Source: an uncultured SAR116 cluster alpha proteobacterium | GTDB taxonomy: Bacteria > Pseudomonadota > Alphaproteobacteria > Puniceispirillales > Marisalimonadaceae | Length of the DNA stretch: 45,164 nucleotides | Assembly (NCBI GenBank): GCA_902589185.1 | Contig: CACIRZ010000008.1 | Location: 1 to 45,164 of the forward strand | Direction of reading: 5' to 3' | The notes under the pieces: model-generated | Told to the model about the DNA's origin: nothing | What the model saw: the letters and a program-made list of their open reading frames with translations, nothing else | Databases searched by the model: none | Program-made: the position numbers and the translations under genes | Shown here: positions 3,394 through 43,154 of the stretch, one piece after another | Layout of the letters: every line of letters starts with the position of its first letter | Position numbering within the stretch: the first letter of the stretch is position 1

Positions 3394-3410
3394 ATTAATT
3401 TGGAAATTTT

Positions 3411-27922: not shown

Positions 27923-27954
27923 CTGAATACAATTTAATGTAGATGGAGATATTA

Positions 27955-29022
27955 ATGTCTATAAAGCCTTATGGTTCAACTTCAGGAAGAAATCATGGAA
28001 AACCAGGAATAGAGATAAGACCTCCTTCTAAAACTGTAGATGCACATTGTCATCTTCATGTTCAAGAAGCGGCAGACCTTGTCCAAGGATTATTTGATCA
28101 ACAAGACATCCCTGCTTTTAGACATGCCAACCAAATTACAACAAATCAAAATATTCAGCAGGTTAAAGATAGATTTATGGATTTAACTAATGTTGAAACA
28201 AGATTAAAAAAAATGGACTCACAAGGCATTGATCTACAAGTTCTGATACCTGTGCCATTCCAACATTATTGTAATGTAAAAAGTGAAGTTGCATATAAAG
28301 CTATAGAAACTATTAATAATAAACTCTCAGAAACAGCTAGTAATCGTAAAGATAGGTTTGTTGCATTAGGAACTCTTCCAATGCAGAACGGTGATATTGC
28401 TGCCAAAGAAATGGAAAGATGTGTAAATGAACTTGATATAAGAGGCTTTCAGATTATTACATTTCAAGACGGAAAAGAGTTATCACACCCTTCTTATGAT
28501 GGTATTTGGGAAACAGCCACAAAATTAGATATCCCTATTTTTCTTCATCCAAATGGTTATCCTGAAGGAGAAAGATTAAAAGATCATTATTTCATTAATA
28601 TAATTGGAAATCCAATGGATACTACTGCAGCCCTTCATCATTTAATTTTTGATGGAACAATGGAAAAAAATCCAAATTTAAAAATTTTAGTTGCTCATGG
28701 TGGTGGTTATCTTCCGGCATATTCGGCAAGGATTGATCATGCATGGGGTGCTAGACCTGATTGTAGAGGCAATAATCTCAAACACAAGCCGTCCGATTAC
28801 CTTAAAAGAATGTATTTTGATACTGTAGTCTTTTCATTTGATCAACTAAAGTATCTTATTGATAAATATGGTGCTGATCATATTATTATGGGAACTGACT
28901 ACCCATATGATATGGCTGAAGATGACCCCATAGAACATGTTATGGGAACTGAAGGACTTTCAAAAGATCAAATTGAGATGATTACTGGTGGTAATGCATG
29001 TTCATTATTTAAAATTAAATAA
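27955..29022 (+). CDS. ACMSD-type amidohydrolase (amidohydrolase_2 family)
   Basis: TIM-barrel metal-dependent hydrolase or decarboxylase, about 355 residues. Metal ligands: HxH in DAHCHLHV, His in IFLHPNGYP, His in LVAHGGGYLP and Asp in IMGTDYPYDM. The family includes aminocarboxymuconate-semialdehyde decarboxylase and resorcylate decarboxylases, so decarboxylation of an aromatic or ring-cleavage acid is plausible, but the substrate is open. An ATG at 27943 is in frame, but GGAGA at 27945-27949 clearly serves the ATG at 27955. It is ten bases from the TRAP-like binding-protein gene and starts the catabolic part of the window. Confidence 0.88.
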   Translation: MSIKPYGSTSGRNHGKPGIEIRPPSKTVDAHCHLHVQEAADLVQGLFDQQDIPAFRHANQITTNQNIQQVKDRFMDLTNVETRLKKMDSQGIDLQVLIPVPFQHYCNVKSEVAYKAIETINNKLSETASNRKDRFVALGTLPMQNGDIAAKEMERCVNELDIRGFQIITFQDGKELSHPSYDGIWETATKLDIPIFLHPNGYPEGERLKDHYFINIIGNPMDTTAALHHLIFDGTMEKNPNLKILVAHGGGYLPAYSARIDHAWGARPDCRGNNLKHKPSDYLKRMYFDTVVFSFDQLKYLIDKYGADHIIMGTDYPYDMAEDDPIEHVMGTEGLSKDQIEMITGGNACSLFKIK

Positions 29023-29032
29023 GTAGTCTACT

Positions 29033-29935
29033 TTGAAACAAAATTTAATTATTGGTGGTTATCAAGGCTCTGCATCACTGCATACCAAATCTATTGGATA
29101 TTTTATTAGTGAAATAACCAATAATTTTGTTATTGATTTTAAAATGGATGTCACTACTGATGGAGATAAAGCTTCAAGTTTAATTGAGAAAACACAACAT
29201 GAAGACATACATGTTTCTTACTTGTTATCTAGCTATTTTGAGAAAATATTACCAGAAATCAAAATTTTAGATTTACCTTATCTGTTTAATAACAGAAATG
29301 AAGCATACAATTTCTTAAAATCAGATTTTTTTAGTTATATAGATGGTAAATTAAAAGATAAAAATTTAAAACTATTAGGTTTTTGGGACAATGGCATTAG
29401 ACACATAAGTTCTAAAATAAAATTAATCAAAACTCTCTCTGATTGTAAAGGACAGGTAATTCGGACTACCCCTAGTCCACTTCATATAGAAATTTTTAAA
29501 AATTTAGGATTTGCACCTAAACCTCTAGACGTAAGGGATTTTAAAATAGCTATCGAAAAGAATGATATAGACGCACAAGAAAATCCTTTAACTAATTACT
29601 GGAATTTTGGGGTATATAAAAAACAGGAATTCGTTACTTTAACATCTCATATTTTTGGATTTTGTTTATTTGTTATCAATAATAGTTATTTCGATAACTT
29701 AACAAATTTAAATAAGAAATTCTTAATTAAAAAATCAAAAAAAGTAACTGATTATCAAAGAAAATTAGCCATTGATGAAGATGAGATTTTAATCAAAAAA
29801 TTAAAGTTAGAAAATATTAAAATACAAACTATTAATAAAAAAAGCTTAAAGGACTTTAAAAGTGTTACTAATGTTTTTCACAACAGTTACTTTCAAACTT
29901 ACCCTAATATGAAACAATATATTAAAACTGAATAA
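29033..29935 (+). CDS. DctP-like TRAP binding protein lacking a signal peptide
   Basis: About 300 residues with the DctP fold: IKILDLPYLFNNRNEAY (about 80-96), LLGFWDNGIRHISS, and CKGQVIRTTPSPLHIEIFKNLGFAP, where the Arg is the one that usually salt-bridges the substrate carboxylate. Unlike normal family members it begins directly with the first strand of the mature domain (TTG start, LIIGGYQGSAS); no hydrophobic leader is present and none is visible upstream before the amidohydrolase stop ten bases away. No dctQ/dctM genes are adjacent. It may be a cytoplasmic sensor or ligand-binding derivative, or a decaying gene; the frame is intact. It is co-directional with the amidohydrolase and likely co-transcribed. 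Confidence 0.78.
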   Translation: MKQNLIIGGYQGSASLHTKSIGYFISEITNNFVIDFKMDVTTDGDKASSLIEKTQHEDIHVSYLLSSYFEKILPEIKILDLPYLFNNRNEAYNFLKSDFFSYIDGKLKDKNLKLLGFWDNGIRHISSKIKLIKTLSDCKGQVIRTTPSPLHIEIFKNLGFAPKPLDVRDFKIAIEKNDIDAQENPLTNYWNFGVYKKQEFVTLTSHIFGFCLFVINNSYFDNLTNLNKKFLIKKSKKVTDYQRKLAIDEDEILIKKLKLENIKIQTINKKSLKDFKSVTNVFHNSYFQTYPNMKQYIKTE

Positions 29936-29940
29936 ATGAT

Positions 29941-31641
29941 TTATTTTACAGGCCTTAAGAAATCAAAATCGGCCCCTTTATCTGCTTGAAGCACACCTTC
30001 ATGAAAAATTTTATCATACCCTCTTCTTTTAATTATTTTATTACTTTTTTTACTCTTTTTTCTTGAAGCTATCTCTTCATCAGATAACTTAAGTTCTAAT
30101 AATCTTTTTTTAACATCTAATTTTATAATATCGCCACTCTTTACAATGTCTAAAGTACCTCCAGCGGCAGCCTCTGGACAAACATGTAAAATAATTGTGC
30201 CTGCTGCAGTACCACTCATTCTTCCATCAGAAATTCTTACCATGTCCTTAACGCCTTGCTTGGCTAATTTTTTAGGAATAGGTATTAAGCCAGCCTCAGG
30301 CATACCTGGTGCACCTATTGGACCAATATTTTTAAGAAGAAGAATACTGTCCTTAGTAACGTTTAAATCATCACTATCAATTCTATTCGCTAAATCTTCA
30401 AGATTCTCAAATACCTCAACTACACCTTCATGAGCTAACAGTTCTTTGCTTGCTGCTGATTGTTTAATTATAGCCGATTTAGGAGCAAGATTTCCTTTTA
30501 ATACTGCTATACTTCCCTTATCAAAAATAGGATTTTCAACGTTTCTTATAACTTCTTGCTTCCAATTATACTCATTTTTCTCAATAATTTCTTTGATAGT
30601 TTCGCCTGTGACTGTAATAGCATCTAAATAAAGGTAATCCTTTAATTCATTTAAAATTCTTGGCAACCCTCCTGATTTAAACAAATCTTCCATATAACCA
30701 GAACCAGACGGCTTTAAGTCAACAATCATGGGTGTGTCTTTTGTCATTTTATCAAATTCATTAAGGTCAATATCTATACCTAGTCTACCAGCCATAGCTG
30801 TCAAATGAACTATTCCATTAGTTGATCCGCCAATTGCAGACAAAACAGTCAATGCATTTTTGAAATTTTTTAGAGTTAAGAAACTTTTTGGGTTAAATGA
30901 TTTATTGGCAATTTCAACAGCCACTTTACCAGTTTCCTCTGCAATTCTTCTTCTTTCTGCAGAAACGGCTGGTGCTGAAGCACCATTTGATATCATCATG
31001 CCAAGAGCTTCAGTAATTAGTGCCATTGTACTGGCAGTACCCATTACACCACATGTTCCAACAGTGGGAACTAACTGATTATTAACTTCATTAATTTCAG
31101 CAAGATCTATTTCTTCTGCTCTGAATTTTGCCCAATAACCTCTACAATCTGTACAAGCCCCTACTCTCTCTCCTCTATGAGATCCAGTAAGCATGGGGCC
31201 AGTAACTAATTGTATTGCAGGAATATTTGCACTAAACGCACCCATCAATTGGGCAGGCACTGTTTTATCACAACCGCCTATTAAAACACATGCATCCATT
31301 GGCTGGGCTTTCATCATTTCTTCTGTATCAATTGACATTAAGTTTCTTAAATACATAGAAGTTGGATAAGCAAAAGATTCATGAATACTTATTGTAGGAA
31401 ACTCTAATGGTATAGCGCCTGAAGATAATATCCCAGCCTTCACACTTTTTATTAAATCAGGTACATTTCCATGGCACGGATTATAGTCACTGTAAGTGTT
31501 AGTGACTCCAATAATAGGCTTATTAAGCATCTCCTCTGAATAACCCATACCCTTGATGAAAGCCTTTCTCAAAAAAATCGAAAACTCACTATCCCCATAG
31601 TTGGTAAGATTTTTATACATACCTGATTCTTTTTTGGTCAT
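29941..31641 (-). CDS. IlvD/Edd-family dehydratase (sugar-acid dehydratase-like)
   Basis: Fe-S-dependent dehydratase of about 566 residues. The three cluster cysteines are in NPCHGNV, GGCDKTVPAQ and GTCGVMGTAST; the last form is typical of the arabinonate/xylonate dehydratase branch rather than biosynthetic IlvD. It removes water from a 2,3-dihydroxy acid to give a 2-oxo-3-deoxy acid. The ATG at 31641 is preferred to a GTG one codon earlier. It is the last gene of a minus-strand run starting with the flavin reductase, 43 bases after the Mo-subunit gene, and converges with the TRAP-like gene at five bases. A role in branched-chain amino acid synthesis is not excluded. Confidence 0.87.
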   Translation of the reverse strand: MTKKESGMYKNLTNYGDSEFSIFLRKAFIKGMGYSEEMLNKPIIGVTNTYSDYNPCHGNVPDLIKSVKAGILSSGAIPLEFPTISIHESFAYPTSMYLRNLMSIDTEEMMKAQPMDACVLIGGCDKTVPAQLMGAFSANIPAIQLVTGPMLTGSHRGERVGACTDCRGYWAKFRAEEIDLAEINEVNNQLVPTVGTCGVMGTASTMALITEALGMMISNGASAPAVSAERRRIAEETGKVAVEIANKSFNPKSFLTLKNFKNALTVLSAIGGSTNGIVHLTAMAGRLGIDIDLNEFDKMTKDTPMIVDLKPSGSGYMEDLFKSGGLPRILNELKDYLYLDAITVTGETIKEIIEKNEYNWKQEVIRNVENPIFDKGSIAVLKGNLAPKSAIIKQSAASKELLAHEGVVEVFENLEDLANRIDSDDLNVTKDSILLLKNIGPIGAPGMPEAGLIPIPKKLAKQGVKDMVRISDGRMSGTAAGTIILHVCPEAAAGGTLDIVKSGDIIKLDVKKRLLELKLSDEEIASRKKSKKSNKIIKRRGYDKIFHEGVLQADKGADFDFLRPVK

Positions 31642-31684
31642 CACAATAGATCCCTAATTATTTTTTGATAAATTCGCAGATAAA

Positions 31685-33838
31685 TTAATTTAATAATTCT
31701 TTCGTAATATTATCCTTGGTAAATGGCAATATTTTTATTCTTTGACCAAGGGCATTACACAATGCGTTTGAAATAGCTGCTCCAGTTGGTCCTGCAACTA
31801 CTTCACCTACGCCTAAATAAGGAGAACCTTTTTGGTCAATTACACTTGTAGTAAAAACAGGAATGTTATCAAAACCTATAATTTTATAACTATCCCAATC
31901 CTTAGAAATTATTTCTTTTGAATCGAAAATCACTTCTTCGTATAAAGCCCAACTTGCTGCTTGAATGAATCCACCTTCAACCTGTGCTTTTATACCATCT
32001 TCATAAGCAATTTCTCCAGCATCTACAGTTATCCAAGCATGATTTAAATTAATTTCTAAATCATCAGTTACATTTAATTCCACACCAACTGCGCAATATG
32101 CCGCAGAATTTTTATATCTTGAAAAAGCTATACCTCTAAAGCTATAATCTTTAGGTTTAAAAATTTCCATTTTTTCTTTTAGGTTATTAAGAACATCAAT
32201 GGCACGCTCATCATCTAAATGATTAATTCTAATATCAAAAGGATCTATGTTTTTAATTGATGCCAAATCATTTAAAAAACTTTCAGACGCTGTTACATTT
32301 GCGAAAGCACCTAAAGTTCGTAATGCAGATGTCCTCAATGGCAAATCATGAACTAAGTTTTTTACTAATCTAGTTTCTTTGAAATTATAAATTGGATCTA
32401 AATTCCTATGTATGCCCATATGAGCAGATGTTTTGGGCGTTGATTTTGTTTTTGCAAAATTATTAGTTAAAAATTTATAACTTGTAAAATTAGTTAATTC
32501 TAAATCTGATGGTCTTGACAAATATGTATCCGAATAAGCCTCATTTGACCAATAAATAACTTCTCCATAATCATTAATAGCTCCAAAAACTTTGTTTAAA
32601 GATGCGCTTCCGTAAGGTTCCCATGAATGCTCATCTTCTCTTGTCCATTTTAATAAGATATGACGATCAGGATATTCCTTTGCAATCACTGATGCTTCAA
32701 ATGCCACGTCATCAGCACCATTATGACCATAGCAACCTGAGCCAGGCATAAATTTCAAACTGACAAGATTTGGATCAATATCAAAAAACTTACTAATGGA
32801 ATATTTTAGAGCAAAAATTGATTGGCTATGAGAAAATATAGTAAATTTGTTATCTTTACAAATAGCACAACTTGCAGATGGTCCTATAGGTCCATGCATT
32901 AAATAACTTTTTTTAAAAGTTGTTGATAATGATTTAATTTTTGGATCATCAAAAGATTTTTTTTCTGGTATCTCTTCATAAAAAGCCTCTCCTCCAGATT
33001 TAACTAACAAAGATTCCTTTTCATTTTTTTCCAGAGAATTAAAAACATTTTCATTAGATAATTGCTGCTTTTCTTCCCAAAAAATATTTTTTTTAGCAAT
33101 CTCCAAGAACTTTGTAACTAAAAATTCATCCTGAGACAGAATTGCAACAAAAGAGCCTTTAACAAAAAGTATAATGTCATTCTCAACAAGTCTTTTTTTA
33201 AAGTCTTCATTTATTTTGATTAATTTGCAGTGATAAGAAGGAGGCCTGACTATTCTAGCATGTAACATTTTTGGAAAATTAATATCATGAACATATTTAT
33301 ATTTTCCTGTAACAATATCATTAATAGTTTTTAACTCTATTTTTTGATTGTTTTCATAATTTATTTTTTTAAGAGAGTTCTCATCAAAATTTTCAGGAAT
33401 AATAATTTTTCTAAAATCATCTGTTTTAGCAAAATCCCAATAAGAAATAGTTTTGTTAGAATTCTTATCTTTAATAACTCCATTTTCAAAAAGAATATCT
33501 TCATTTTTAATCTCAAGATTTTCTAATGCATACTTGATAAAATTTATTTTTAGAGTAATAGAAGCAGCCTTAATAGCAGATCCTGAATTTGCTACAGACA
33601 AACTGCTAGCAGTAATGCCTTCATTAGGTGATATATCAGTACTTAATTTAATGATTTCTATTTGATCATATTTAATTTCAGTGATTTTAGAAGCAATTAA
33701 TGCCAGTGTAGAACTTATATGTTGTCCTATATCGATTTTACCAGAGTAAACTTTTAAAATTCCAGGATTACTAAAATCAAACCAATGACTTAATTTGTTG
33801 TAAGTATTAATACTAGGGCCGCTGTTAAATTGATTCAT
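31685..33838 (-). CDS. Molybdopterin-binding large subunit of a xanthine-dehydrogenase-family hydroxylase (IorB/NicB-like)
   Basis: Mo-cofactor subunit, 717 residues, that hydroxylates aromatic rings, N-heterocycles or aldehydes using water. The order is that of two-subunit enzymes: a Mo-binding part first (KVYSGKIDIGQHISSTLALI, then NEGITASSLSVANSGSAIKA), an 'ald_Xan_dh' part in the middle (DIVTGKYKYVHDINFPKMLH), and the second Mo-binding part with GPSASC, the MPGSGCYGHNGADDVA loop and the C-terminal LGVGEVVAGPTGAAISNAL, whose Glu in GVGE is the likely catalytic base. No twin-arginine signal, so apparently cytoplasmic. It is 13 bases downstream of the 2Fe-2S subunit gene. Confidence 0.88.
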   Translation of the reverse strand: MNQFNSGPSINTYNKLSHWFDFSNPGILKVYSGKIDIGQHISSTLALIASKITEIKYDQIEIIKLSTDISPNEGITASSLSVANSGSAIKAASITLKINFIKYALENLEIKNEDILFENGVIKDKNSNKTISYWDFAKTDDFRKIIIPENFDENSLKKINYENNQKIELKTINDIVTGKYKYVHDINFPKMLHARIVRPPSYHCKLIKINEDFKKRLVENDIILFVKGSFVAILSQDEFLVTKFLEIAKKNIFWEEKQQLSNENVFNSLEKNEKESLLVKSGGEAFYEEIPEKKSFDDPKIKSLSTTFKKSYLMHGPIGPSASCAICKDNKFTIFSHSQSIFALKYSISKFFDIDPNLVSLKFMPGSGCYGHNGADDVAFEASVIAKEYPDRHILLKWTREDEHSWEPYGSASLNKVFGAINDYGEVIYWSNEAYSDTYLSRPSDLELTNFTSYKFLTNNFAKTKSTPKTSAHMGIHRNLDPIYNFKETRLVKNLVHDLPLRTSALRTLGAFANVTASESFLNDLASIKNIDPFDIRINHLDDERAIDVLNNLKEKMEIFKPKDYSFRGIAFSRYKNSAAYCAVGVELNVTDDLEINLNHAWITVDAGEIAYEDGIKAQVEGGFIQAASWALYEEVIFDSKEIISKDWDSYKIIGFDNIPVFTTSVIDQKGSPYLGVGEVVAGPTGAAISNALCNALGQRIKILPFTKDNITKELLN

Positions 33839-33851
33839 AATATTAATTACT

Positions 33852-34316
33852 CTAATTTTCTATTAAACTATCAATCGCCTTTAATACTACAGAATGAGAT
33901 CCACAGCGGCACAAATGGCCATTTAAAGCATTTTGAATTTCTTGTGACGAAGGTTTTTTATTTTTATCAAATAGTGCTGTAATACTTATTATAATACCAC
34001 TTGTGCAATACCCACATTGAGCTGCATTAAATTCTCTGAACGCTTCTTGAACATTATTTAAACCATCTTTGTTTTCAAGGCCTTCAATAGTTGTAATTTC
34101 ACAATTTTGATAATCTTTAGCCAATAAATTACACGAAAGTTTTTTTTCTCCATCTATTAATATAGCACAGCTTCCACATTGCTCGAGACCGCATCCTAGT
34201 TTTGTCCCAGTTAAACCAAGTTCATCTCTAATTACATGAATTAGAGTTTTATCTTCAATTATGGGTATTTTTTTTAAATTACCATTTATTTTAAAGCTGC
34301 AATCAAGATAATTCAT
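33852..34316 (-). CDS. 2Fe-2S small subunit of Mo hydroxylase (IorA/NicA-like)
   Basis: Electron-transfer subunit of 154 residues with two [2Fe-2S] clusters. The plant-ferredoxin-type cluster is in LGCGLEQCGSCAILIDGEKKLSC (first Cys to last about 40-60), and the second is in CGYCTSG and GHLCRCGSH in the C-terminal helical domain. It pairs with the large subunit just downstream. No FAD-binding third subunit gene (CoxM type) lies nearby, as in isoquinoline oxidoreductase and nicotinate hydroxylase systems, which pass electrons to other acceptors. Confidence 0.93.
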   Translation of the reverse strand: MNYLDCSFKINGNLKKIPIIEDKTLIHVIRDELGLTGTKLGCGLEQCGSCAILIDGEKKLSCNLLAKDYQNCEITTIEGLENKDGLNNVQEAFREFNAAQCGYCTSGIIISITALFDKNKKPSSQEIQNALNGHLCRCGSHSVVLKAIDSLIEN

Positions 34317-34334: not shown

Positions 34335-35339
34335 TTAATTAACTTTATTATCCTTGTTTGTAAATTCATCTGTAAAAAGAATTATTTTACCAAAGTGACT
34401 GTTTTTATTCATAATATCTAGTGCTTCTTTTGCCTTTGTTAAATGCATTTTTGAATAAATAACTTGTCTAATTTTTCCTGCTAAAACGCTCGCCCAAAGA
34501 TCATTATTTGCCAAAGTAGCTACCATTTCATTTTCTTCAAGGGATCTTGTTCTACCAGTAGTCCCAACATAATGAAGTCTTCTTTTAGCATGAAGATCAT
34601 AATTAAAATTTCCACTCATACCTGCAAGTCTTCCAATATTTACAATATGACCATGTATTTTAGTTGCTTCCATATTTTTATTTACATAATTACCTGAAAG
34701 CATATCAATTAAAATATCTACTCCTTCTCCACTTGTTGCTTTTAAGACATCATCAAGCCAATTGTCACTTGATATATCTATAAGTACATTAGCACCATAT
34801 TCTTTTAGTTTATTTAATTTTATTTTATTTGTTGAAGAGCCCAAAACTCTACTTGCTCCTAGTGATTTTGCTATTTGAAGCCCAATTAATCCTACACCAG
34901 TAGTTGCACCTTGAATAAAAACTGTTTGCCCTTTAACAAATTTTCCGTTTGTTACAATAGCATCATGCATAGTTTGAAGGCTTCCTTGAATTGAAGCGCC
35001 CTGCTCCCAAGAAATTTTATCATTATCAAATTTTACAATTCTTTTAAAATTAGCTACTGCATATTCAGCCCAACCAGAGCCTCCTCTACACATTACTTTA
35101 TCGCCAATATTAAAATTATTGACAGATTTGCCTAATTCAACAATTTTACCAGCAAATTCTCCGCCAATAATTTTATGTTCTCCACCAGTGTGACCAAATG
35201 ATTGACCTTGAGTTTCCAATAAATCAGATCTGTTTAGGCCACATGTATAAACTTTTACTAAAACTTGATCAGGTTTAATTTCAGGAATAGGAAGATCTTT
35301 TATTTCTACTCCATTATTAGTTAATGTGACTGCTATCAT
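34335..35339 (-). CDS. Quinone-oxidoreductase-like MDR enzyme
   Basis: Medium-chain dehydrogenase/reductase, 334 residues, zinc-free QOR/enoyl-reductase group. N-terminal GroES-like domain with CGLNRSDLLETQG and GGEFAGKIVELG; NADPH Rossmann domain with FIQGATTGVGLIGLQIAK (about 143-160). The zinc-binding cysteines and histidine of alcohol dehydrogenases are absent. It may reduce an enone or quinone intermediate of the pathway. Spacing to the SDR gene upstream is 24 bases and to the 2Fe-2S gene downstream 18 bases, in keeping with one transcript. Confidence 0.87.
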   Translation of the reverse strand: MIAVTLTNNGVEIKDLPIPEIKPDQVLVKVYTCGLNRSDLLETQGQSFGHTGGEHKIIGGEFAGKIVELGKSVNNFNIGDKVMCRGGSGWAEYAVANFKRIVKFDNDKISWEQGASIQGSLQTMHDAIVTNGKFVKGQTVFIQGATTGVGLIGLQIAKSLGASRVLGSSTNKIKLNKLKEYGANVLIDISSDNWLDDVLKATSGEGVDILIDMLSGNYVNKNMEATKIHGHIVNIGRLAGMSGNFNYDLHAKRRLHYVGTTGRTRSLEENEMVATLANNDLWASVLAGKIRQVIYSKMHLTKAKEALDIMNKNSHFGKIILFTDEFTNKDNKVN

Positions 35340-35363
35340 AAAAAAAACCTTATTAAATTTTGT

Positions 35364-36128
35364 TTATCTTGCAGTCCAACCTCCATCTACTAATACACTT
35401 GATCCAGTCATTAAGGAAGACGCATCAGATGCTAAAAATACAAATGGACCCATCAAGTCAGTTACTTCGCCTAATCTACCAATTGGTATCATTCCAATAG
35501 TAGTTTTTTTAAAGTCTTTATCTTTTAAAAATGGCTCAGTCATAGGGGTTTGAATAAAGGTAGGGCAGATTGCATTAACCCTTATACCATCAGGCCCTAA
35601 TTCAATAGCTAACGATTTTGTGAAACCTTCAATGGCAAACTTACTTGAACAATATGTAGTCCTATTAGGCCCGCCTACATGCCCCATTTGTGATGAAACA
35701 TTAATTATAGATCCTTTTATATTACTATCTAACATTTTCTTAACAACTAGTTTTGTTAGACTGATTACAGATCTTACATTTAAAGACATAACATAATCAA
35801 AATCTTCTATTTTTGTATCTATAAGTTTTGCTGGCCTATTAGTACCGGCATTATTTATAAGTATATCAAAAGGCTCAGCATTATTTATAAAAGCTGATAC
35901 CTCATCATCATTATTGACATCCAATACTTCATAAGATGCTTTAAAGCCTTCGTTATTTATGTGATCCGTTAAATCTTTTAATTCTTTTTCTGTTCTAGAG
36001 ACCAAAGTAACGTTTGCACCAGATTCTGCTAAAGCAATAGATGCGCCCATTCCAATTCCTCGACCAGCTCCAGTAACTAGAGCTCTTTTCCCGTCCAATC
36101 GAAAACTTGGTAATTTTGGATAATTCAT
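35364..36128 (-). CDS. Short-chain dehydrogenase (FabG-like SDR)
   Basis: Classical SDR, 254 residues. Cofactor motif TGAGRGIG (about 19-26), NNAG motif, catalytic Ser in NVSSQMGHVGG, YCSSK (Tyr-x3-Lys), and the C-terminal GSSVLVDGGWTAR. It probably oxidises a hydroxyl group of a catabolic intermediate, given its place between the HisD-family and MDR genes; fatty-acid FabG is unlikely in this context. AGGAG is present just before the ATG; eight bases separate it from the end of the HisD-family gene, so the two are likely co-translated partners. Confidence 0.9.
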   Translation of the reverse strand: MNYPKLPSFRLDGKRALVTGAGRGIGMGASIALAESGANVTLVSRTEKELKDLTDHINNEGFKASYEVLDVNNDDEVSAFINNAEPFDILINNAGTNRPAKLIDTKIEDFDYVMSLNVRSVISLTKLVVKKMLDSNIKGSIINVSSQMGHVGGPNRTTYCSSKFAIEGFTKSLAIELGPDGIRVNAICPTFIQTPMTEPFLKDKDFKKTTIGMIPIGRLGEVTDLMGPFVFLASDASSLMTGSSVLVDGGWTAR

Positions 36129-36136
36129 ATTTTCTC

Positions 36137-37444
36137 CTATTCTGCTGCAGCATATGGCTCAATATTTCTTCCACCATACCTTCTTACTCTAACATTAGCC
36201 TGCTCACCATGACCGGAAAAACCTTCCAATGCACATAACCTTGAGCAATACTCTCCAACAAGAGCAGAGGCCTCGTCAGTTAAAACTTTTTGATAAGTAC
36301 AAGTTTTTAGAAATTTGCCGACCCACAATCCGCCAGTGTATCTTGCAGCAGTTTTAGTTGGTAAAGTATGGTTTGTCCCTATAACTTTGTCACCAAAAGC
36401 AACATTTGTTCTTGAGCCTAAAAACAAAGCTCCATAATTAGTCATATTTTTATGAAAATAATCAGGATCTTCTGTCATTACCTGCACATGCTCAAATGCC
36501 AAGTCATCTGCAACTTTAACCATTTCATCAATATTGTCACAAACTATAACCTGACCGTATTCTTTCCATGAAACTCTAGCAATTCCAGCTGTTGGTAGAA
36601 TTTCTAACTGTCTCTCAACTTCTTTTAATGTTTCAAGAGCAAGTTTTTCTGAGTCAGTTAACAAAATAGCCGGACTAGTAGGTCCATGTTCTGCTTGACC
36701 TAATAGATCAATTGCACATATTTCTGGATCAGATGATTTATCGGCAATTATAAGTGTCTCTGTGGGACCTGCAAACAAGTCAATTCCAACTCTACCAAAT
36801 AATTGACGCTTTGCTTCAGCAACAAACATATTACCTGGTCCAACTAACATGTCTACACCATTTATGGTTTCAGTTCCGATTGCCATTGCGGCTACAGCTT
36901 GTATTCCACCTAAACATAATATCTTATCTGCCCCACCCATATGCATAGCAGCCACTATAGCAGGATGAGGCTCTCCACCTTGCGGAGGTGCGGATGCAAT
37001 AATATCTTTTACCCCAGCTACTTTAGCTGTTAAAACTGACATATGTGCAGAAGCTACCATTGGGTATTTACCTCCAGGAACATAACAACCTACTGCATTC
37101 ATTGGTATATTCTTATGCCCCAAAACTACACCTGGCATAGTTTCTACTTCTAAGTCTTTAATACATTCAAGTTGCTTTTGTGCAAAATTCCTTACTTGAG
37201 TTTGTGCAAATTTAATATCTTCAATATCTCTCTTAGATACTTTGCTTATTGCCGTTTCTATTTCTTCTTTACTTAAAATAAAATTGTCAGGTGAATAATT
37301 ATCAAATTTAATTGAAAGCTCTCTAACTGCTTCATCACCTCTTTTAGCTACATCTTGTAGAATTTTTTCAACTGTTTGTCTAACCTCTGCATCCGCTTCT
37401 ATAATTTCTTTCTCAGATTTTCCATTTTTTAACCACTTTGCCAT
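36137..37444 (-). CDS. Histidinol-dehydrogenase-family enzyme in a catabolic operon
   Basis: NAD-dependent four-electron dehydrogenase of the HisD fold, 435 residues. Zinc ligands and catalytic residues are kept: QAEHG (Gln, His), the Glu-His pair in [21 protein letters not shown] (Asp), and EGFSGH near the C terminus. No other his genes are near, while an SDR, a Mo hydroxylase and a TRAP transporter are. The segments [20 protein letters not shown] and [15 protein letters not shown] recall the non-biosynthetic branch that includes sulfopropanediol dehydrogenase (HpsN). The likely job is oxidation of a primary alcohol to a carboxylate; the substrate is unknown and a sulfonate is only one option. 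GAGGAA precedes the ATG. Confidence 0.85.
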
Positions 37445-37503
37445 TTATTCCTCATTAATTTTTAATTATTATTTGATCCTATAATTTTTTTCGAATATTT
37501 CAA

Positions 37504-37968
37504 TTAAGAAATCTGACCATTCCAGAAAGTTAATGGCTCTAATTCTAATGAATTAAATGAAGTAACCTCACCTACTAAAATTTGATGATCTCCTCCAGAA
37601 TAATAGTTCCATTTTAAACAATCGAACCAGGCTAAAGAATTTTCTAATAATGGAAACCCATTTTCGCTTCGCTTCCAAATAATATTTTTAAATTTATCAT
37701 CTTCTTGTGAAGAAAATTTAAAGCAGAGATCATTTTGATCCTTTGATAAAATGTTTACAGCATAACCTTTTGCGTTCATGAAAGAATTATAACTAGGTTG
37801 TTTTTTATCTATACACCATAGCACTAATGCAGGATCTAGAGATACAGATGTAAAACTATTAACTGTCATTCCAATGGGATTTCCATCATCAGTCGATGTG
37901 ACTACAGTGACACCAGTTGAATACTTACCTAAGGTTTGTCTAAGAAACTTTGAATCCAAGGTTTTCAT
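37504..37968 (-). CDS. Flavin reductase (RutF/HpaC-like, flavin_reduct domain)
   Basis: Small NAD(P)H:flavin reductase, 154 residues, supplying reduced flavin to a partner oxygenase. Family features are LGKYSTGVTVVTS, GMTVNSFTSVSLDPALVLWCI, and GDHQILVGEV near the end; the C terminus (PLTFWNGQIS) is short but complete. It is the first gene of the minus-strand catabolic run (59 bases to the next gene) and is divergent from lysR. No oxygenase is adjacent; the best partner in the window is the LLM-type gene starting at 45065, whose promoter shares the same LysR-type box. Confidence 0.9.
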   Translation of the reverse strand: MKTLDSKFLRQTLGKYSTGVTVVTSTDDGNPIGMTVNSFTSVSLDPALVLWCIDKKQPSYNSFMNAKGYAVNILSKDQNDLCFKFSSQEDDKFKNIIWKRSENGFPLLENSLAWFDCLKWNYYSGGDHQILVGEVTSFNSLELEPLTFWNGQIS

Positions 37969-38010
37969 TATTTAAATTCTCTTCTTTTGAATTAAAACAT
38001 GTTTTCTTTA

Positions 38011-38024
38011 ACATATTAATATGT
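38011..38024. promoter_or_regulatory. Perfect palindrome in flavin reductase/lysR control region
   Basis: ACATATTAATATGT is a perfect 14-base palindrome. It lies immediately downstream of a TATAAT on the minus strand (38030 to 38025), so it would cover the transcript start of the flavin reductase operon. It could be a second operator; in such AT-rich DNA chance is possible. Confidence 0.4.
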
Positions 38025-38056
38025 ATTATATGTAATTATTTATTTATATGAATTAT

Positions 38057-38071
38057 ATCAATTTAACTGAT
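38057..38071. promoter_or_regulatory. LysR-type operator box 1 (ATCA-N7-TGAT)
   Basis: The dyad ATCA-atttaac-TGAT has the T-N11-A spacing of LysR boxes (T38058, A38070). It lies 12 bases before lysR and 88 bases before the flavin reductase start, fitting autorepression plus divergent activation. The same dyad recurs at 39017 and 44970. Confidence 0.6.
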
Positions 38072-38083
38072 AGCGATTAAATT

Positions 38084-39013
38084 ATGTCTGTATCAATTAA
38101 ACAATTAAAAGCTTTTGTTGCAGTGGTTGAAGAGAATTCTTTTAGTTTAGCCGCAGAAAGGCTTAATGCCACACAATCAGGTATGTCAATGTTAGTTCAA
38201 AATTTAGAATTAAGTATTGGCAAAAAATTAATTAATAGAGTCCCTGGCAAAATGGTTTTAACTGAGAGTGGAAAAAATTTCTATAAGTATGCTTTAGAAA
38301 TTTTAAGTTTAATGGACAAAGCTTTAATTGACGCTAAAACTGATACTGAAGACCTATCTGGAACTTTTAATTGTGGATTAATGCCAACATTTACTAGATC
38401 AGCTCTTCCCGCAACACTTTCTAAATTTCTTAAAGAATATCCTAAGGTAGATGTAAAAGTAACAGAAGCTTACTCTGGTGTTTTAGAGGATATGGTAAGA
38501 ACTAATAAACTTGAATTTGCTATAGTCCCTTCAGTAAAAAACCCTACTGGATTGAATATTGAATTTGTATCAAGTGACTTGAATTTTCTAGTCACGAAAA
38601 AAAATTCTGAATTTGAACATTTAAAGCCTATAAAACTCTCAAAACTTGATAAAATTAAAATTATTCTACCTGGTGTTGAAAATTCTAGAAGAATTTCATT
38701 AGACGAATACTTTGCAACTCATAATATTAAGATAGATAAAACATTAGAAATGGATGGTATGATAGGCACATTAGAAATGGTTGCTTCTAGTGATTGGTGC
38801 GCTATTCTACCAGCCGTTTTATGTGATTTAGATATTCTTGGAAATTTAAGGACATTATCGCCACTCACTTCCCCAAACTTCACTACAGAATATGTTTTAA
38901 TTACATCAGCTAGTAAAGAGCTTAGCTCTGCTGCAAAATTATTTAGTGAAAAGATATGTGATGAAATTAAATCAATTACAGAAAAAATGAATCAAAAAGT
39001 TAGACCTATATAG
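38084..39013 (+). CDS. LysR-family transcriptional regulator
   Basis: DNA-binding regulator of 309 residues. The winged helix-turn-helix (about 5-65) reads FVAVVEENSFSLAAERLNAT followed by QSGMSMLVQNLE. The C-terminal type-2 periplasmic-binding-like effector domain spans about 90-295. It is divergent from the flavin reductase gene across 115 bases and lies 101 bases before the TRAP operon, the normal place for a pathway regulator. Putative binding sites (ATCA-N7-TGAT) occur on both sides and again between the dehydrogenase and LLM genes. The inducer is unknown but is likely the transported compound or an intermediate. An inverted repeat AATTTAA-N10-TTAAATT (38060-38083) runs up to the ATG. 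Confidence 0.93.
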   Translation: MSVSIKQLKAFVAVVEENSFSLAAERLNATQSGMSMLVQNLELSIGKKLINRVPGKMVLTESGKNFYKYALEILSLMDKALIDAKTDTEDLSGTFNCGLMPTFTRSALPATLSKFLKEYPKVDVKVTEAYSGVLEDMVRTNKLEFAIVPSVKNPTGLNIEFVSSDLNFLVTKKNSEFEHLKPIKLSKLDKIKIILPGVENSRRISLDEYFATHNIKIDKTLEMDGMIGTLEMVASSDWCAILPAVLCDLDILGNLRTLSPLTSPNFTTEYVLITSASKELSSAAKLFSEKICDEIKSITEKMNQKVRPI

Positions 39014-39016
39014 TAA

Positions 39017-39031
39017 ATCATGTAAAGTGAT
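39017..39031. promoter_or_regulatory. LysR-type operator box 2 (ATCA-N7-TGAT)
   Basis: ATCA-tgtaaag-TGAT with one more matching base on each side (AATCA...TGATT) and T-N11-A spacing (T39018, A39030). It lies three bases after the lysR stop and 83 bases before the TTG start of dctQ, in position to control the TRAP operon. Confidence 0.6.
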
Positions 39032-39114
39032 TAGAAATATATAATTTTATGATTTGAATACAAATAAAGTAATCGTAAAGTAATAAATACAAACGTACTA
39101 CTCGGGGAAATAAA

Positions 39115-39588
39115 TTGTTAAACCACATTAAGAAAACGCCTGAATATCTTCAATCGATAGCTGCAATTTGGCTTATTTTAGTTGCTTTGACTATTTTTGC
39201 AGAAGTTACCTTTAGAAATCTTGGTATTTTCCTTGGCGCAGATCAAATTGTTCAAAATTCTGTTCCAGCTATAGTTTTTCTTCAAGTACCATTCGCGATA
39301 GCATCTGGAACAATGCTTAGAACAACTCTAATTTATGATTTTTTCAAAAAAAGAGGAAAAATGATAATTAACATCATATCCTACGTTATTGGTATTATGT
39401 TATTTGTAGGTATAGCAGTTGGTGGATGGACTGATATGATTAAGGGTTGGGAAATTGGAGAATATCAAGGAATTGGAGCAATTGAATTTCCAGTTTATCC
39501 AATAAGAACAGTAATTATTTTCTCATCAATTATAGTGGTTTTTATTTATTTATCTCTAATTGTAAAATCATTTATGTCAAACAAGTAA
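39115..39588 (+). CDS. dctQ: TRAP transporter small permease (DctQ-type)
   Basis: Small membrane subunit of a tripartite ATP-independent periplasmic transporter, 157 residues. Four hydrophobic segments are visible at about 14-31, 45-63, 85-105 and 130-150, with the family-typical TIFAEVTFRNLG after the first. The start is TTG with GGGGA at 39104-39108 seven bases upstream; no ATG fits. It precedes the large permease by 22 bases and heads the operon dctQ-dctM-dctP. Confidence 0.88.
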   Translation: MLNHIKKTPEYLQSIAAIWLILVALTIFAEVTFRNLGIFLGADQIVQNSVPAIVFLQVPFAIASGTMLRTTLIYDFFKKRGKMIINIISYVIGIMLFVGIAVGGWTDMIKGWEIGEYQGIGAIEFPVYPIRTVIIFSSIIVVFIYLSLIVKSFMSNK

Positions 39589-39610
39589 ATTAGTAAAAAA
39601 GGATATTAAG

Positions 39611-40927
39611 TTGGGAATTGATTTAGATATATTAATGATTTTAACATTAGTAGGAATGCTTTTAGCAATCTTTTCAGGTGTTCATATTGCCCTCGCCTTA
39701 GGCGCTACAGCAATGATTGGTACATATTTTATATTTGAAGATATGTATATGGCTGCAAGTCAAGTTGGCGGTGCTGCTTATGAATTAATTAGAGACCATA
39801 TATTTATGACAATCCCACTTTTTGTATTAATGGGAGATTTTCTATCAAGAAGTGGTGCTGCAGGTGACTTATATTCTTTAATAAATAAAGGCCTTAAAGG
39901 AGTTCCGGGAAGGCTTGGTGTTGCAACTGTTACTGGTAATGCAGCTTTTGCTGCTGTTACAGGTACCTCAATCGCATCAGCTGCTGCATTCTCAAGAATT
40001 GCTTGGCCAGAAATGAAAAAAGCTGGATATGATCAAAAATTAGCAGTCGGGTCAATAGCTGGTAGTGCTTGTTTAGGAATGTTAATTCCTCCAAGTGTTT
40101 TGCTCATTGTTTGGGGTATTATAACCGAAGACTCAATAGGCAAACTTTTCGTTGCTGGAGTTATTCCTGGAATTATATTATCACTTATGTTTGCTTTTTA
40201 TAATTTCTCTAAAGCCGTAATTAATCCTAAACTTGCCCCTGAGCCTGATAGTATAGGAGACCTTACAAAACTTACTGAAAAACAAATTATATCTGGATTA
40301 TCTATTCTTGGATTAATAGTTGTTGTTTTGGGAGGTATTTGGGGAGGTATATTCACTCCTACCGAAGCCGCTGGAATGGGTGCTCTTGCAAGTTTTGGTA
40401 TTGCTTTATTCAAAGGCATGAGATGGAATGGTATTGTAGAGTCAGTTATTGATGCAGGTAAAACTTCTGCTCCAATCATGATATTATTAATTACTGCAGG
40501 AATGTATTCAAGATTTTTGTCATTATCAGACATAGACTCTGTCATTGTAGATGCAATGGCTTCTTTTGGATTAAATAGCTTTATGATTTTAGTAATGATG
40601 GTCGTGATTTGGCTTATATTAGGCATGTTATTAGATTCTATATCAATAATTTTATTAACAGTTCCATTATTTGTATTACTTGCGGGCGATATGAATCCTT
40701 ATGCATTTGCAATTTTTGGAATTTTAGCAATTGAAGCTGGTTTACTTACACCACCTTTTGGTCTTATAGTTTATACAGTTAAAGGAGTTTTAGCAGCTGG
40801 GGGAGATAATGTATCATTAGGATCTATTTTTAAAGGATCCGTTCCATATTGGATAATGATGTTAATTGTAATGTTGTTAGTTGCATTTTTTCCAGAATTA
40901 GCCAGCTGGCCAACACAATTTGTTTAG
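39611..40927 (+). CDS. dctM: TRAP transporter large permease (DctM-type)
   Basis: Main membrane subunit that couples substrate uptake to a sodium or proton gradient, 438 residues with about eleven to twelve hydrophobic segments. Family signatures include MTIPLFVLMGDFLSRSGAAG, AAVTGTSIASAAAFSRIAWPEM, GSACLGMLIPPSVLLIVWG and TPTEAAGMGALASFG. The start is TTG at 39611, seven bases after a GGA ribosome site. It is part of the operon with the small permease and the binding protein. Confidence 0.94.
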   Translation: MGIDLDILMILTLVGMLLAIFSGVHIALALGATAMIGTYFIFEDMYMAASQVGGAAYELIRDHIFMTIPLFVLMGDFLSRSGAAGDLYSLINKGLKGVPGRLGVATVTGNAAFAAVTGTSIASAAAFSRIAWPEMKKAGYDQKLAVGSIAGSACLGMLIPPSVLLIVWGIITEDSIGKLFVAGVIPGIILSLMFAFYNFSKAVINPKLAPEPDSIGDLTKLTEKQIISGLSILGLIVVVLGGIWGGIFTPTEAAGMGALASFGIALFKGMRWNGIVESVIDAGKTSAPIMILLITAGMYSRFLSLSDIDSVIVDAMASFGLNSFMILVMMVVIWLILGMLLDSISIILLTVPLFVLLAGDMNPYAFAIFGILAIEAGLLTPPFGLIVYTVKGVLAAGGDNVSLGSIFKGSVPYWIMMLIVMLLVAFFPELASWPTQFV

Positions 40928-40977
40928 TAAAAACATGGGGTTAAATACTAAACTTAACACTGCCTATGGAGGAAATA

Positions 40978-42078
40978 ATGATTAGGTACTTAAAAAAAGC
41001 TATACCATTAAGCATTTTAGCTTCTGGTATAATGGCATCTGCTTCTTTTGCAGATACCTTCACTCTAAGGGTTGGTTCTGGTCACCCATCAAAACCAACT
41101 GCTTATGTTACTAATATGGAGAAAGTTTTAGTTCCAAATATTAAAAAAAGAGTTGCTGCAGAAACAAACCATAAAGTTAGAATTATTGAAGCTTACGCAG
41201 GAAAGATTGCAAAAGTTCATGAAACTTTAGAGGCTGTAGAAAAAGGATTATTAGATATTGGTTCATACTGTGTATGTTTTGAGACTGCAAAACTATTACC
41301 ATGGAACTTTGATTATTTTGTCCCTTTTACAACAACAAACCTTGTAACAAACTGGGAAGTAAAGCATAAAATTCTTAAGCAATTCCCAGAACTAACCAAA
41401 ATGCTCGAAGATAAATATAATCAGAAGTTTCTTGCTATGCAGGGCTTTGATGATTATGGAATAGGTACAGTTAAACAATGGCAAAAAGCTAGCGAGTTAA
41501 AAGGTGTTAAAGTTATAGCTGCAGGTCCAAACTTACCTTGGGTTTCTTTGTTTGGTTCTATTCCGGTTACGTCTACACTTCCTACAATGTATAATGACTT
41601 AGCTACTGGAGTTGCAAAAGGTGTTATTATCTTCCCATCAGCACATGCAGGGGGATTTAAATTTTATGAGCAAGCTCCATATTGGAAGGTAATTGGATTT
41701 GGTGCAATGGCACAAACAATAACAACAATTAACCTAGATACTATGAAAAAGTTACCACCTGAAATTGTTAAGATAATAATGGAAGAATCAGTTAACTATG
41801 AAAAAGCTGCTGTTAAAGATGGACAACAGAGATATCAAAAAGGTCTTACTGATTTAGTTAAACTTGGCAAGAAAAAAGGTATCAATGATGCTGTAACTTA
41901 TTTACCAGTATCTGAGCAAAAAATTTGGGCAGAAACAATTAAAGATTGGCCAAATTCAAGAGCTAAGGATATTACCAAAGATTATGGTATGGACGGAGCT
42001 GCTATAATGAACGCATATATGGAAGAAATGGAAAAAACTGGCCACAAGTTCCCAGTGCGTTATAAAATTGGCGGGTAA
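40978..42078 (+). CDS. dctP: TRAP transporter substrate-binding protein (DctP-type)
   Basis: Periplasmic binding protein, about 366 residues. A signal peptide is clear, with cleavage after ASASFA. An in-frame ATG at 40966 exists but GGAGG at 40968-40972 sets the start at 40978. The fold markers (YAGKIAKVHETLEAVEKGLLDIG) are present. At the position where most DctP proteins have the substrate-binding Arg (LKGxKxR), this one reads LKGVKVIAAGPNLPW, so the Arg is replaced, pointing to an atypical ligand mode. It is followed by a strong terminator. The ligand is unknown. Confidence 0.93.
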   Translation: MIRYLKKAIPLSILASGIMASASFADTFTLRVGSGHPSKPTAYVTNMEKVLVPNIKKRVAAETNHKVRIIEAYAGKIAKVHETLEAVEKGLLDIGSYCVCFETAKLLPWNFDYFVPFTTTNLVTNWEVKHKILKQFPELTKMLEDKYNQKFLAMQGFDDYGIGTVKQWQKASELKGVKVIAAGPNLPWVSLFGSIPVTSTLPTMYNDLATGVAKGVIIFPSAHAGGFKFYEQAPYWKVIGFGAMAQTITTINLDTMKKLPPEIVKIIMEESVNYEKAAVKDGQQRYQKGLTDLVKLGKKKGINDAVTYLPVSEQKIWAETIKDWPNSRAKDITKDYGMDGAAIMNAYMEEMEKTGHKFPVRYKIGG

Positions 42079-42380: not shown

Positions 42381-43154
42381 TTATTCAAAAATAGCTACAA
42401 CTCTTACAAATCCTGCTGAACCGTTTTTGATTTTAAATGGGAAGGCAGAAACATTAAAACCATAACTTGGTAATTGATCTAAATTATTTAATTTTTCTAT
42501 ATGAGAATAGCCTTGGACCATCCCAGCTCTATGACCTTCCCATATTATTGAAGGATCTTTGGTTTGTTTATATTTTTCAGCTGTATAAGAAAAAGGAGCA
42601 TCCCAGCTCCACGCATCCGTGCCAGTAACTCGTACTCCTTGGTCAAGTAAATAAATAGTAGCTTCTTGACTTATTCCACAACCTTTTGTTAAAAAATCAT
42701 CTTTTCCATAATGACCACCTGCAGAAGTGTTTATAAATACAATATCTAAAGGTTTTAATTCATAATTGATTTTTTTTATTTCGTTTTGCAAATCACTTTT
42801 AGTTAAAACATATCCATCTTCATATGATCTTAAATCCAATTTAACACCATCACTGAAACACCATTCTAATGGCACTTCATCAATCGTGATGGCTCTTTGC
42901 CCATTATTCATTGTTGAATGGTAATGATATGGGGCATCCATATGGGTGCCATTATGCGTGCTTACAGTAATTGTCTCCATTGCCCAACCTTCTTCACCTG
43001 GTAAATCTGTTTTTTTTAAACCAGGAAAAAAACTCATCATTTCTTCAGCTGTTTCTTTATGATGGTGATAGTTTATCTTAGGCAACATAAAATCTGGATC
43101 TGATTTTATACCCTCTTCTAAACTGACCGATAAATCTAAGAACTTTCTAGACAT
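42381..43154 (-). CDS. Cyclase-family hydrolase (kynurenine formamidase / isatin hydrolase-like)
   Basis: Metal-dependent hydrolase of the PF04199 cyclase family, 257 residues. The diagnostic metal motif is STHNGTHMDAPYHYH (HxGTHxDxPxH, about 85-99). Known members hydrolyse cyclic or aryl amides such as N-formylkynurenine and isatin. C-terminal segment GTDAWSWDAPF and GHRAGMVQGY fit the family. It is the last gene of a minus-strand operon (dehydrogenase, cupin, YciI, cyclase); GAGGTAAGA precedes the ATG. Likely job: ring or amide opening in the pathway; substrate unknown. Confidence 0.88.
   Translation of the reverse strand: MSRKFLDLSVSLEEGIKSDPDFMLPKINYHHHKETAEEMMSFFPGLKKTDLPGEEGWAMETITVSTHNGTHMDAPYHYHSTMNNGQRAITIDEVPLEWCFSDGVKLDLRSYEDGYVLTKSDLQNEIKKINYELKPLDIVFINTSAGGHYGKDDFLTKGCGISQEATIYLLDQGVRVTGTDAWSWDAPFSYTAEKYKQTKDPSIIWEGHRAGMVQGYSHIEKLNNLDQLPSYGFNVSAFPFKIKNGSAGFVRVVAIFE

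Follow-up and report, generated by a model that had tools for sequence, protein, structure and literature searches.

A leaderless clade of DctP-fold proteins in bacterial catabolic gene clusters, with a possible cytosolic function

A match to the DctP family (PF03480) in a genome annotation is read as one part of a periplasmic importer of the tripartite ATP-independent periplasmic (TRAP) type. In the TRAP binding protein SiaP, residues Arg127, Arg147, Glu186, Asn187 and His209 are involved in holding the ligand and in a hinge network (PMC4089482, in excerpt), and the Arg147 contact is believed to be critical for most TRAP binding proteins (PMC5812351, in excerpt). Not every relative of a binding protein need serve transport: cyclohexadienyl dehydratase has a solute-binding protein as its ancestor (PMC7683729, in excerpt), and one survey describes cytosolic single-domain proteins matching solute-binding protein Pfam profiles, ~1% of the proteins retrieved there being predicted to be cytosolic (PMC9602780, in excerpt). 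Here we describe a DctP homologue encoded at positions 29033 to 29935 of a 45,164-nucleotide stretch of contig CACIRZ010000008.1 (the whole stretch is referred to below as the window) from an uncultured SAR116 cluster alphaproteobacterium, the genome of which comprises 80 contigs and is 62% complete. As judged from their sequences, this protein and its relatives are a leaderless clade that has the carboxylate clamp and hinge latch of the transport proteins, a residue signature of its own and catabolic genes for neighbours. Our favoured reading, put forward tentatively, is that the 29033 protein binds a hydroxy-carboxylate in the cytosol and has most likely been taken over as an enzyme.

A DctP-fold clade without leaders

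The 29033 protein matches PF03480 with 173 bits (E 1.1e-50; cut-off 23.4) and the NCBIfam TRAP_S1 subfamily model NF037995 with 143.8 bits (cut-off 50), and scores 153.7 with the NCBIfam dctP model TIGR00787, below the cut-off of 175.05. An AlphaFold2 model built with 49 clade sequences (mean pLDDT 95.4, pTM 0.91) predicts that the flytrap fold is intact, the closest solved fold being that of the sugar acid binding protein DctPAm (7bbr/7bco; Z 38.8, root-mean-square deviation 1.7 over 298 residues). A sequence-only reading of the window had recognised the DctP fold and placed the ligand arginine in the motif CKGQVIRTTP, and both assignments stand: the arginine of VIRTTP is R144, which is found in all 56 clade members compared. 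In its family models, its fold and its carboxylate arginine the protein thus resembles a TRAP DctP binding protein; it has neither a signal peptide or anchor nor co-encoded DctQ and DctM.

No leader can be encoded at this locus because the frame is closed by an in-frame TAG with only two codons between it and the TTG start (Table 1). The modelled chain opens at its first strand (residues 3–8), in agreement with the earlier proposal that the protein begins at the first mature strand. A frameshifted or upstream leader was considered and ruled out, the upstream stretch being the amidohydrolase gene and the frame being closed. The gene encodes a real leaderless DctP-fold protein, presumably cytoplasmic.

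The same genome contains nine DctP matches, the eight others of which read as leader-bearing, each with a DctQ- or DctM-like frame recognised by eye in its short locus (in locus L005, on the opposite strand; L and G numbers are our labels for loci and genomes). A profile of SAR116 members gives 526 bits with the 29033 protein as against 31 or fewer with those eight. Within the family to which the window belongs, 31 of 58 genomes match the 29033 protein at E ≤ 1e-20, its own genome and one distant member counted, a recurrence beyond chance. Thirty orthologous loci, own included, were compared, one of which (L034) is cut by a contig edge; in the 29 with a readable N-terminus, open frame extends only 2–16 codons ahead of the match, and a TTG or ATG start is found there; none has a leader or room for one. 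The sequence-only reading had singled out a leader upstream in orthologues as the thing to look for, and since the orthologues are leaderless too, a truncation peculiar to this strain is rejected.

Beyond the family, the named genomes and a class sample split sharply: frames scoring at least 219 bits with the family profile are leaderless wherever the N-terminus is readable, and those scoring 172 bits or less carry a hydrophobic stretch of at least 1.87, bar two cut by contig edges. The leader hydrophobicity threshold (1.8 over 12 residues) is reached by none of 69 clade members (highest 1.72, in L053) as against 28 of the 29 nearest ordinary relatives, the twenty-ninth lying just below it at 1.78. 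Clade starts were chosen by rule (the nearest ATG, otherwise another start codon, no more than 16 codons before the GGY-type motif) after L112, L130 and L109 (contig edge), L096 (internal stop) and L060 (the window itself) had been left out. The start lies 6–9 codons before the motif in 63 of 67 members and 12–15 codons before it in the other four, a result partly built in by the rule, and the whole upstream open frame was checked separately. In the 67 members with a readable start this frame holds no 12-residue stretch at the threshold (again with 1.72 the highest value), and in 48 of them a stop closes it no more than 20 codons from the match. All ten genes from f104, an alphaproteobacterial family by our numbering, look leaderless too.

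Two trees place the leaderless DctP proteins, as far as their sequences tell, in a single clade. In a quick tree built on 44 ordinary rows and 56 leaderless ones, the latter reduced from 69 by removal of near-copies of at least 90% identity, one branch separates the two groups, with an SH-aLRT value of 99. A careful tree of 40 leaderless and 36 ordinary rows, for which 16 leaderless rows (the long-branched L126 among them) were thinned by hand and which takes in the 29 ordinary proteins that were retrieved from the phylum sample as its best matches, likewise has one separating branch, with support of 100/99 and present in 100% of 200 bootstrap trees.

Residues and cysteines were compared between the 56 leaderless rows and 36 of the 44 ordinary ones, the eight ordinary proteins of the window genome being left out. 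In common with ordinary relatives, the clade keeps N120, G121, R123, R144, D180, Q182, E183, N184, P185 and H206. The residues of the carboxylate clamp and domain latch are almost invariant, with R123, R144, E183 and N184 in all 56 leaderless rows and H206 in 55. A second set, G9, Y10, Y63, S67, Y68, D166 and N188, is near-invariant in the clade (55–56 of 56) as against 0–7 of the 36 ordinary rows, and position 47 is alanine in 52 of 56 leaderless rows and acidic in 33 of 36 ordinary ones. This signature is alike in the SAR116 subgroup and in those we designate GGYQP and GGYGP, although their neighbouring enzymes differ. Every leaderless row has at least one cysteine (mean 2.3) and 23 of the 36 ordinary rows have none, a difference between related rows for which a p value would overstate the case.

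The sequence-only reading had also proposed a test for selection. Nei–Gojobori ratios of non-synonymous to synonymous substitution (dN/dS) for the 29033 gene against 14 relatives are 0.11–0.41 in the 11 pairs whose dS exceeds 0.1, compared with 0.04–0.07 for the neighbouring dehydratase, 0.03–0.15 for the amidohydrolase and 0.05–0.15 for a metallo-beta-lactamase-fold gene. Judged by these ratios the gene is constrained, but less so than its neighbours, and one broken relative, described below, also qualifies the picture.

Distribution and gene neighbourhoods

Among the matches listed, clade members carry the record labels SAR116, Rhodospirillaceae, Hyphomicrobiales, Xanthobacteraceae, Afifella, Devosia, SAR324, Betaproteobacteria and Syntrophobacterales, and two close named matches of the 29033 protein (96% and 95% identity) belong to a SAR116-cluster alphaproteobacterium and an alphaproteobacterial single cell. 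Most named members among the 80 loci listed come from uncultured genomes, that is, metagenome bins or single cells. Contigs L112 (labelled Flavobacteriales) and L116 (Porticoccaceae) carry SAR116-like copies and were probably assigned to the wrong public genomes in binning. Of the 398 genomes in a phylum sample, that of the window alone reaches clade level (411 bits; next best 218), and in a class sample of 385 it is joined by four genomes of one family (at least 225 bits; next best 160); at most five or six candidates were scored per genome in these samples, so that members may be missed. Two or three leaderless copies are present in each of four f104 genomes.

A GGYGP query found no relative at E ≤ 1e-50 among named plasmids. 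At 1e-15 the 29033 protein matched 298 plasmid records; among the 40 matches listed, 20 begin no earlier than query residue 59, and five, from Azospirillum, begin at residue 1. The one Azospirillum match that was inspected carries a leader and gives 182 bits with the family profile; DctQ- and DctM-like frames, recognised by eye, accompany it, and it was therefore classed as ordinary. In the phylum sample we also observed, by eye, membrane-anchored DctP domains running into an apparent branched-chain amino-acid type binding domain in L182 (G509), L188 (G580) and L191 (G544); open frames of the same size (721–760 amino acids) occur in G443, G464, G484, G488 and G576.

The enzyme encoded ten bases upstream of the 29033 gene is predicted to be ACMSD-like, as the sequence-only reading had it: the gene ends at 29022 and the closest solved relatives of its product are ACMSD structures (4igm/4ofc/2wm1; E 2e-47). 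The proposed pairing of the two genes is only partly upheld. An amidohydrolase aligned over its length adjoins the leaderless gene in 12 of the 30 orthologous loci (in one with an internal stop), three have a fragment, 14 have none adjoining and one is not readable; in six of the 18 loci with the window's type of neighbourhood the amidohydrolase is missing or a fragment and the DctP gene is still present. Related genes recur further afield, near clade members in SAR324 (34% identity, 1.1 kb away) and in two f104 loci (47–48% identical to the SAR324 gene). An obligatory pair is ruled out by these counts, and the association is common but dispensable.

The other neighbours are likewise catabolic enzyme types that vary by lineage. 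An IlvD/EDD-type dehydratase, convergent with the 29033 gene in the window, is found in 24 of 25 SAR116 leaderless loci (within 1.5 kb in 14) and in none of 38 other leaderless loci. Alpha/beta hydrolases lie within 1.5 kb in 11 of 25 SAR116 and three of 23 GGYGP loci, enzymes of the 3-hydroxyisobutyrate-dehydrogenase type in 10 of 15 GGYQP loci, and molybdenum hydroxylase relatives are present in four of 23 GGYGP loci, once within 1.5 kb. In Afifella a Gfo/Idh/MocA oxidoreductase gene, 63% identical to the SAR116 gene, lies 113 bases from the leaderless gene. Four of the ten f104 loci fetched (L201, L204, L206 and L209) combine Gfo/Idh/MocA genes, a hydroxyisobutyrate-type dehydrogenase and a conserved protein of 245–267 amino acids, and two of these four also have a TctA 66% identical to that of SAR116. 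The conserved protein, for which the L201 copy returned no Pfam match and no solved relative, is encoded directly upstream of the leaderless gene, 3–9 bases off, in L201, L204 and L209 and one gene further off in L206. Genes for a DUF1330 protein and for a small one with no Pfam match flank L053 (positions 1991–3595), the most divergent member from the window's own family. As a control, eleven long ordinary loci held one of eleven neighbour queries (the dehydratase) once, in a small set of which nine come from other phyla. Comparison of the leaderless neighbourhoods revealed no regulator or fixed enzyme partner that accompanies the clade as a whole.

Further downstream, the window contains a cluster (34335–42078) of a sulfopropanediol 3-dehydrogenase-like gene, an SDR, a Zn-dehydrogenase, a LysR gene and TRAP genes, which suggests dihydroxypropanesulfonate use.

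Table 1 Features of the window and of related loci discussed in the text
Feature	Position	Strand	Details
ACMSD-like amidohydrolase (Amidohydro_2)	27943..29022	+	10 bases upstream of the 29033 gene; Pfam, PDB matches
In-frame TAG closing the frame 5' of the TTG start	29024..29026	+	Sequence reading; leader excluded
Leaderless DctP-fold protein gene	29033..29935	+	300 aa, TTG start; open reading frame, Pfam, model
Y10 codon, G9-Y10 clade signature (GGYQG)	29060..29062	+	Y in 55/56 leaderless, 0/36 ordinary
R123 codon, taken as equivalent to Hi-SiaP Arg127	29399..29401	+	56/56 leaderless, 36/36 ordinary
R144 codon, taken as equivalent to Hi-SiaP Arg147 (ligand-carboxylate Arg)	29462..29464	+	56/56 leaderless, 36/36 ordinary
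IlvD/EDD-type dehydratase, convergent neighbour	29941..31644	-	Pfam/NCBIfam
Molybdenum hydroxylase large subunit	31685..33838	-	Pfam
[2Fe-2S] subunit beside molybdenum hydroxylase	33852..34316	-	Pfam
Sulfopropanediol-dehydrogenase-like gene	36137-37444		PDB 8v35, E 2e-112; best histidinol dehydrogenase 2e-77
Separate TRAP transporter set	39115..42078	+	DctQ 39115-39588, DctM 39611-40927, DctP with leader 40966-42078
Conserved 245-267 aa protein	L201 4905-5642; L204 6894-7652; L206 4286-5089; L209 6372-7115

Possible functions of the leaderless proteins

We have, then, a clade of TRAP solute-binding homologues without leaders or a permease link, under selection and in catabolic gene clusters. 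Under the enzyme reading, to which we would give a little less than an even chance, the 29033 protein would work in the cytosol, where its flytrap would close on a hydroxy-carboxylate pathway intermediate, perhaps a sugar-acid-like one, and would most likely convert it enzymatically, for instance as an isomerase, a dehydratase or the catalyst of a lactone-opening step. A sugar-acid-like ligand is suggested by analogy with the nearest solved relative, DctPAm, and by the IlvD/EDD neighbour. Catalysis is preferred because the residue signature is fixed while the pathways vary, because no permease or regulator generally accompanies the clade and because there is precedent for the evolution of solute-binding proteins into enzymes (PMC7683729, in excerpt). 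Invariant residues of its own, in genes beside those for metabolic enzymes, are what an enzyme derived from a binding protein should display, and their presence here is suggestive. It is possible, though somewhat less likely than not, that the clade as a whole is an unrecognised family of cytosolic enzymes derived from TRAP solute-binding proteins, having kept the clamp, gained a fixed Tyr/Ser/Asp/Asn set in the cleft and come to act on hydroxy-acid intermediates, by one type of step, in several catabolic clusters unrelated to one another.

Several observations weigh against catalysis. No catalytic residue set was recognised in the 29033 clade, and every one of the clade's own residues might do no more than help to bind a single class of ligand. 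By SiaP numbering, which we presume to carry over, several clade residues fall at or beside ligand contacts and so may lie in the pocket, a placement made by numbering and not on the coordinates of the model. The dN/dS of the 29033 gene is 2.6–7 times that of the neighbouring dehydratase, and such faster evolution is more in keeping with a binding protein than with a core enzyme. Permease genes also occur at a distance from some members: TctA is encoded 2.0–7.4 kb away in nine of 67 leaderless loci (counts that are not comparable with those for the shorter ordinary loci), and TRAP sets related to that of the window lie 2.0–3.0 kb from the leaderless genes of L125, L132 and L168, with identities of 54% for DctM (L125 and L168), 41–44% for DctQ and 38–40% for DctP. 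With such genes a few kilobases from some members, the clade may yet have a link to transport.

Nearly as likely as the enzyme reading is a non-catalytic holder or sensor in the cytosol that would bind a pathway intermediate and buffer it, hand it to a neighbouring enzyme or report its level to a partner. The retained clamp and latch residues of transport binding proteins and the faster evolution are both consistent with such a role, as is a regulator family of the GntR/UTRA type in three of the ten f104 loci (L204, L206 and L209; Pfam was run on the L204 copy only). The lack of a regulator or fixed enzyme partner for the clade as a whole, with neighbours that differ by lineage, argues in the other direction, and we met with no free cytosolic DctP holder in our searches of the open-licence PubMed Central literature.

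It is improbable that the 29033 protein reaches the periplasm by an export route as yet unrecognised and there serves as the binding protein of a distant permease such as the TRAP set of the window or the TctAB of relatives. The sequence-only reading was correct that no permease gene is adjacent, and made no mention of the complete TRAP set ~9 kb downstream. Within 1.5 kb, DctM is encoded at one of 67 leaderless loci as against 57 of 66 ordinary ones; at least two ordinary genes (G211 and G216) are counted twice in the latter figure, most of these loci reach no further than 1.5 kb on each side and the later 29 places are approximate. The sole leaderless exception has beside it an NMT1_3 protein and DctM, which form a set of the TAXI type complete with a binding protein. 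The related TRAP and TctA genes a few kilobases from some members speak for a distant permease, and relatives of the cyclase at 42381–43154 (56–58%), like those of the window DctM (54%), recur around leaderless genes in Rhodospirillaceae; such recurrence argues somewhat for a shared substrate. However, the TRAP sets carry their own DctP, which in the window has a leader, TctC genes adjoin several of the TctA genes, and the 69 members have no hydrophobic N-terminus and the 56 compared all have cysteine.

Least credible of all is a drifting relic of a lost transporter, an idea of the sequence-only reading that may hold for individual strains, given an internal TAA in one orthologue (G025, L013/L096) and ratios of 0.75, 0.40 and 0.43 (the last for the broken copy) in the three nearest pairs, with dS below 0.06, but that is contradicted at the level of the clade, which is widespread, is constrained in the more distant pairs, is free of internal stops in the remaining 30 of the 31 family-genome matches, keeps its residues in members only 22–31% identical to the 29033 protein and is present in multiple copies in f104. 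In L096 the adjoining amidohydrolase also has an internal stop, which suggests local loss of the pathway in G025.

Comparison with known systems

Whether the clade catalyses or only binds, counts of transporters based on DctP matches can be inflated by proteins that belong to no transporter, a whole clade of such matches being described here without a leader or an adjoining importer. We found no paper on leaderless DctP proteins in the open-licence PubMed Central literature, which may not be exhaustive. If the clade only binds, it would represent a cytosolic flytrap that holds or senses metabolites. With TRAP binding proteins such as DctPAm of Advenella (7bbr/7bco) and SiaP (3b50) it shares the fold, the carboxylate arginine, the second arginine, the QENP motif and the latch histidine; it differs from them in having cysteines, residues of its own and alanine in place of an acid at position 47, and in having no leader or adjoining permease.

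The orphan solute-binding proteins, Bug/TctC of Bordetella and AdpC of Rhodopseudomonas, are likewise encoded without an adjoining permease gene, but are TctC-family and extracytoplasmic (PMC5812351, in excerpt), whereas the present clade is DctP-family and leaderless. The cytosolic proteins noted in the survey of solute-binding protein profiles resemble the clade in combining such a match with the absence of export, and the excerpt of that paper describes no DctP case (PMC9602780). Cyclohexadienyl dehydratase provides the precedent for a flytrap fold turned metabolic catalyst (PMC7683729, in excerpt), catalysis by the clade being our proposal. Should the proposal be correct, the leaderless DctP proteins would be a further example of a binding protein turned enzyme, drawn from a different binding-protein family and with many relatives surviving on either side of the transition.
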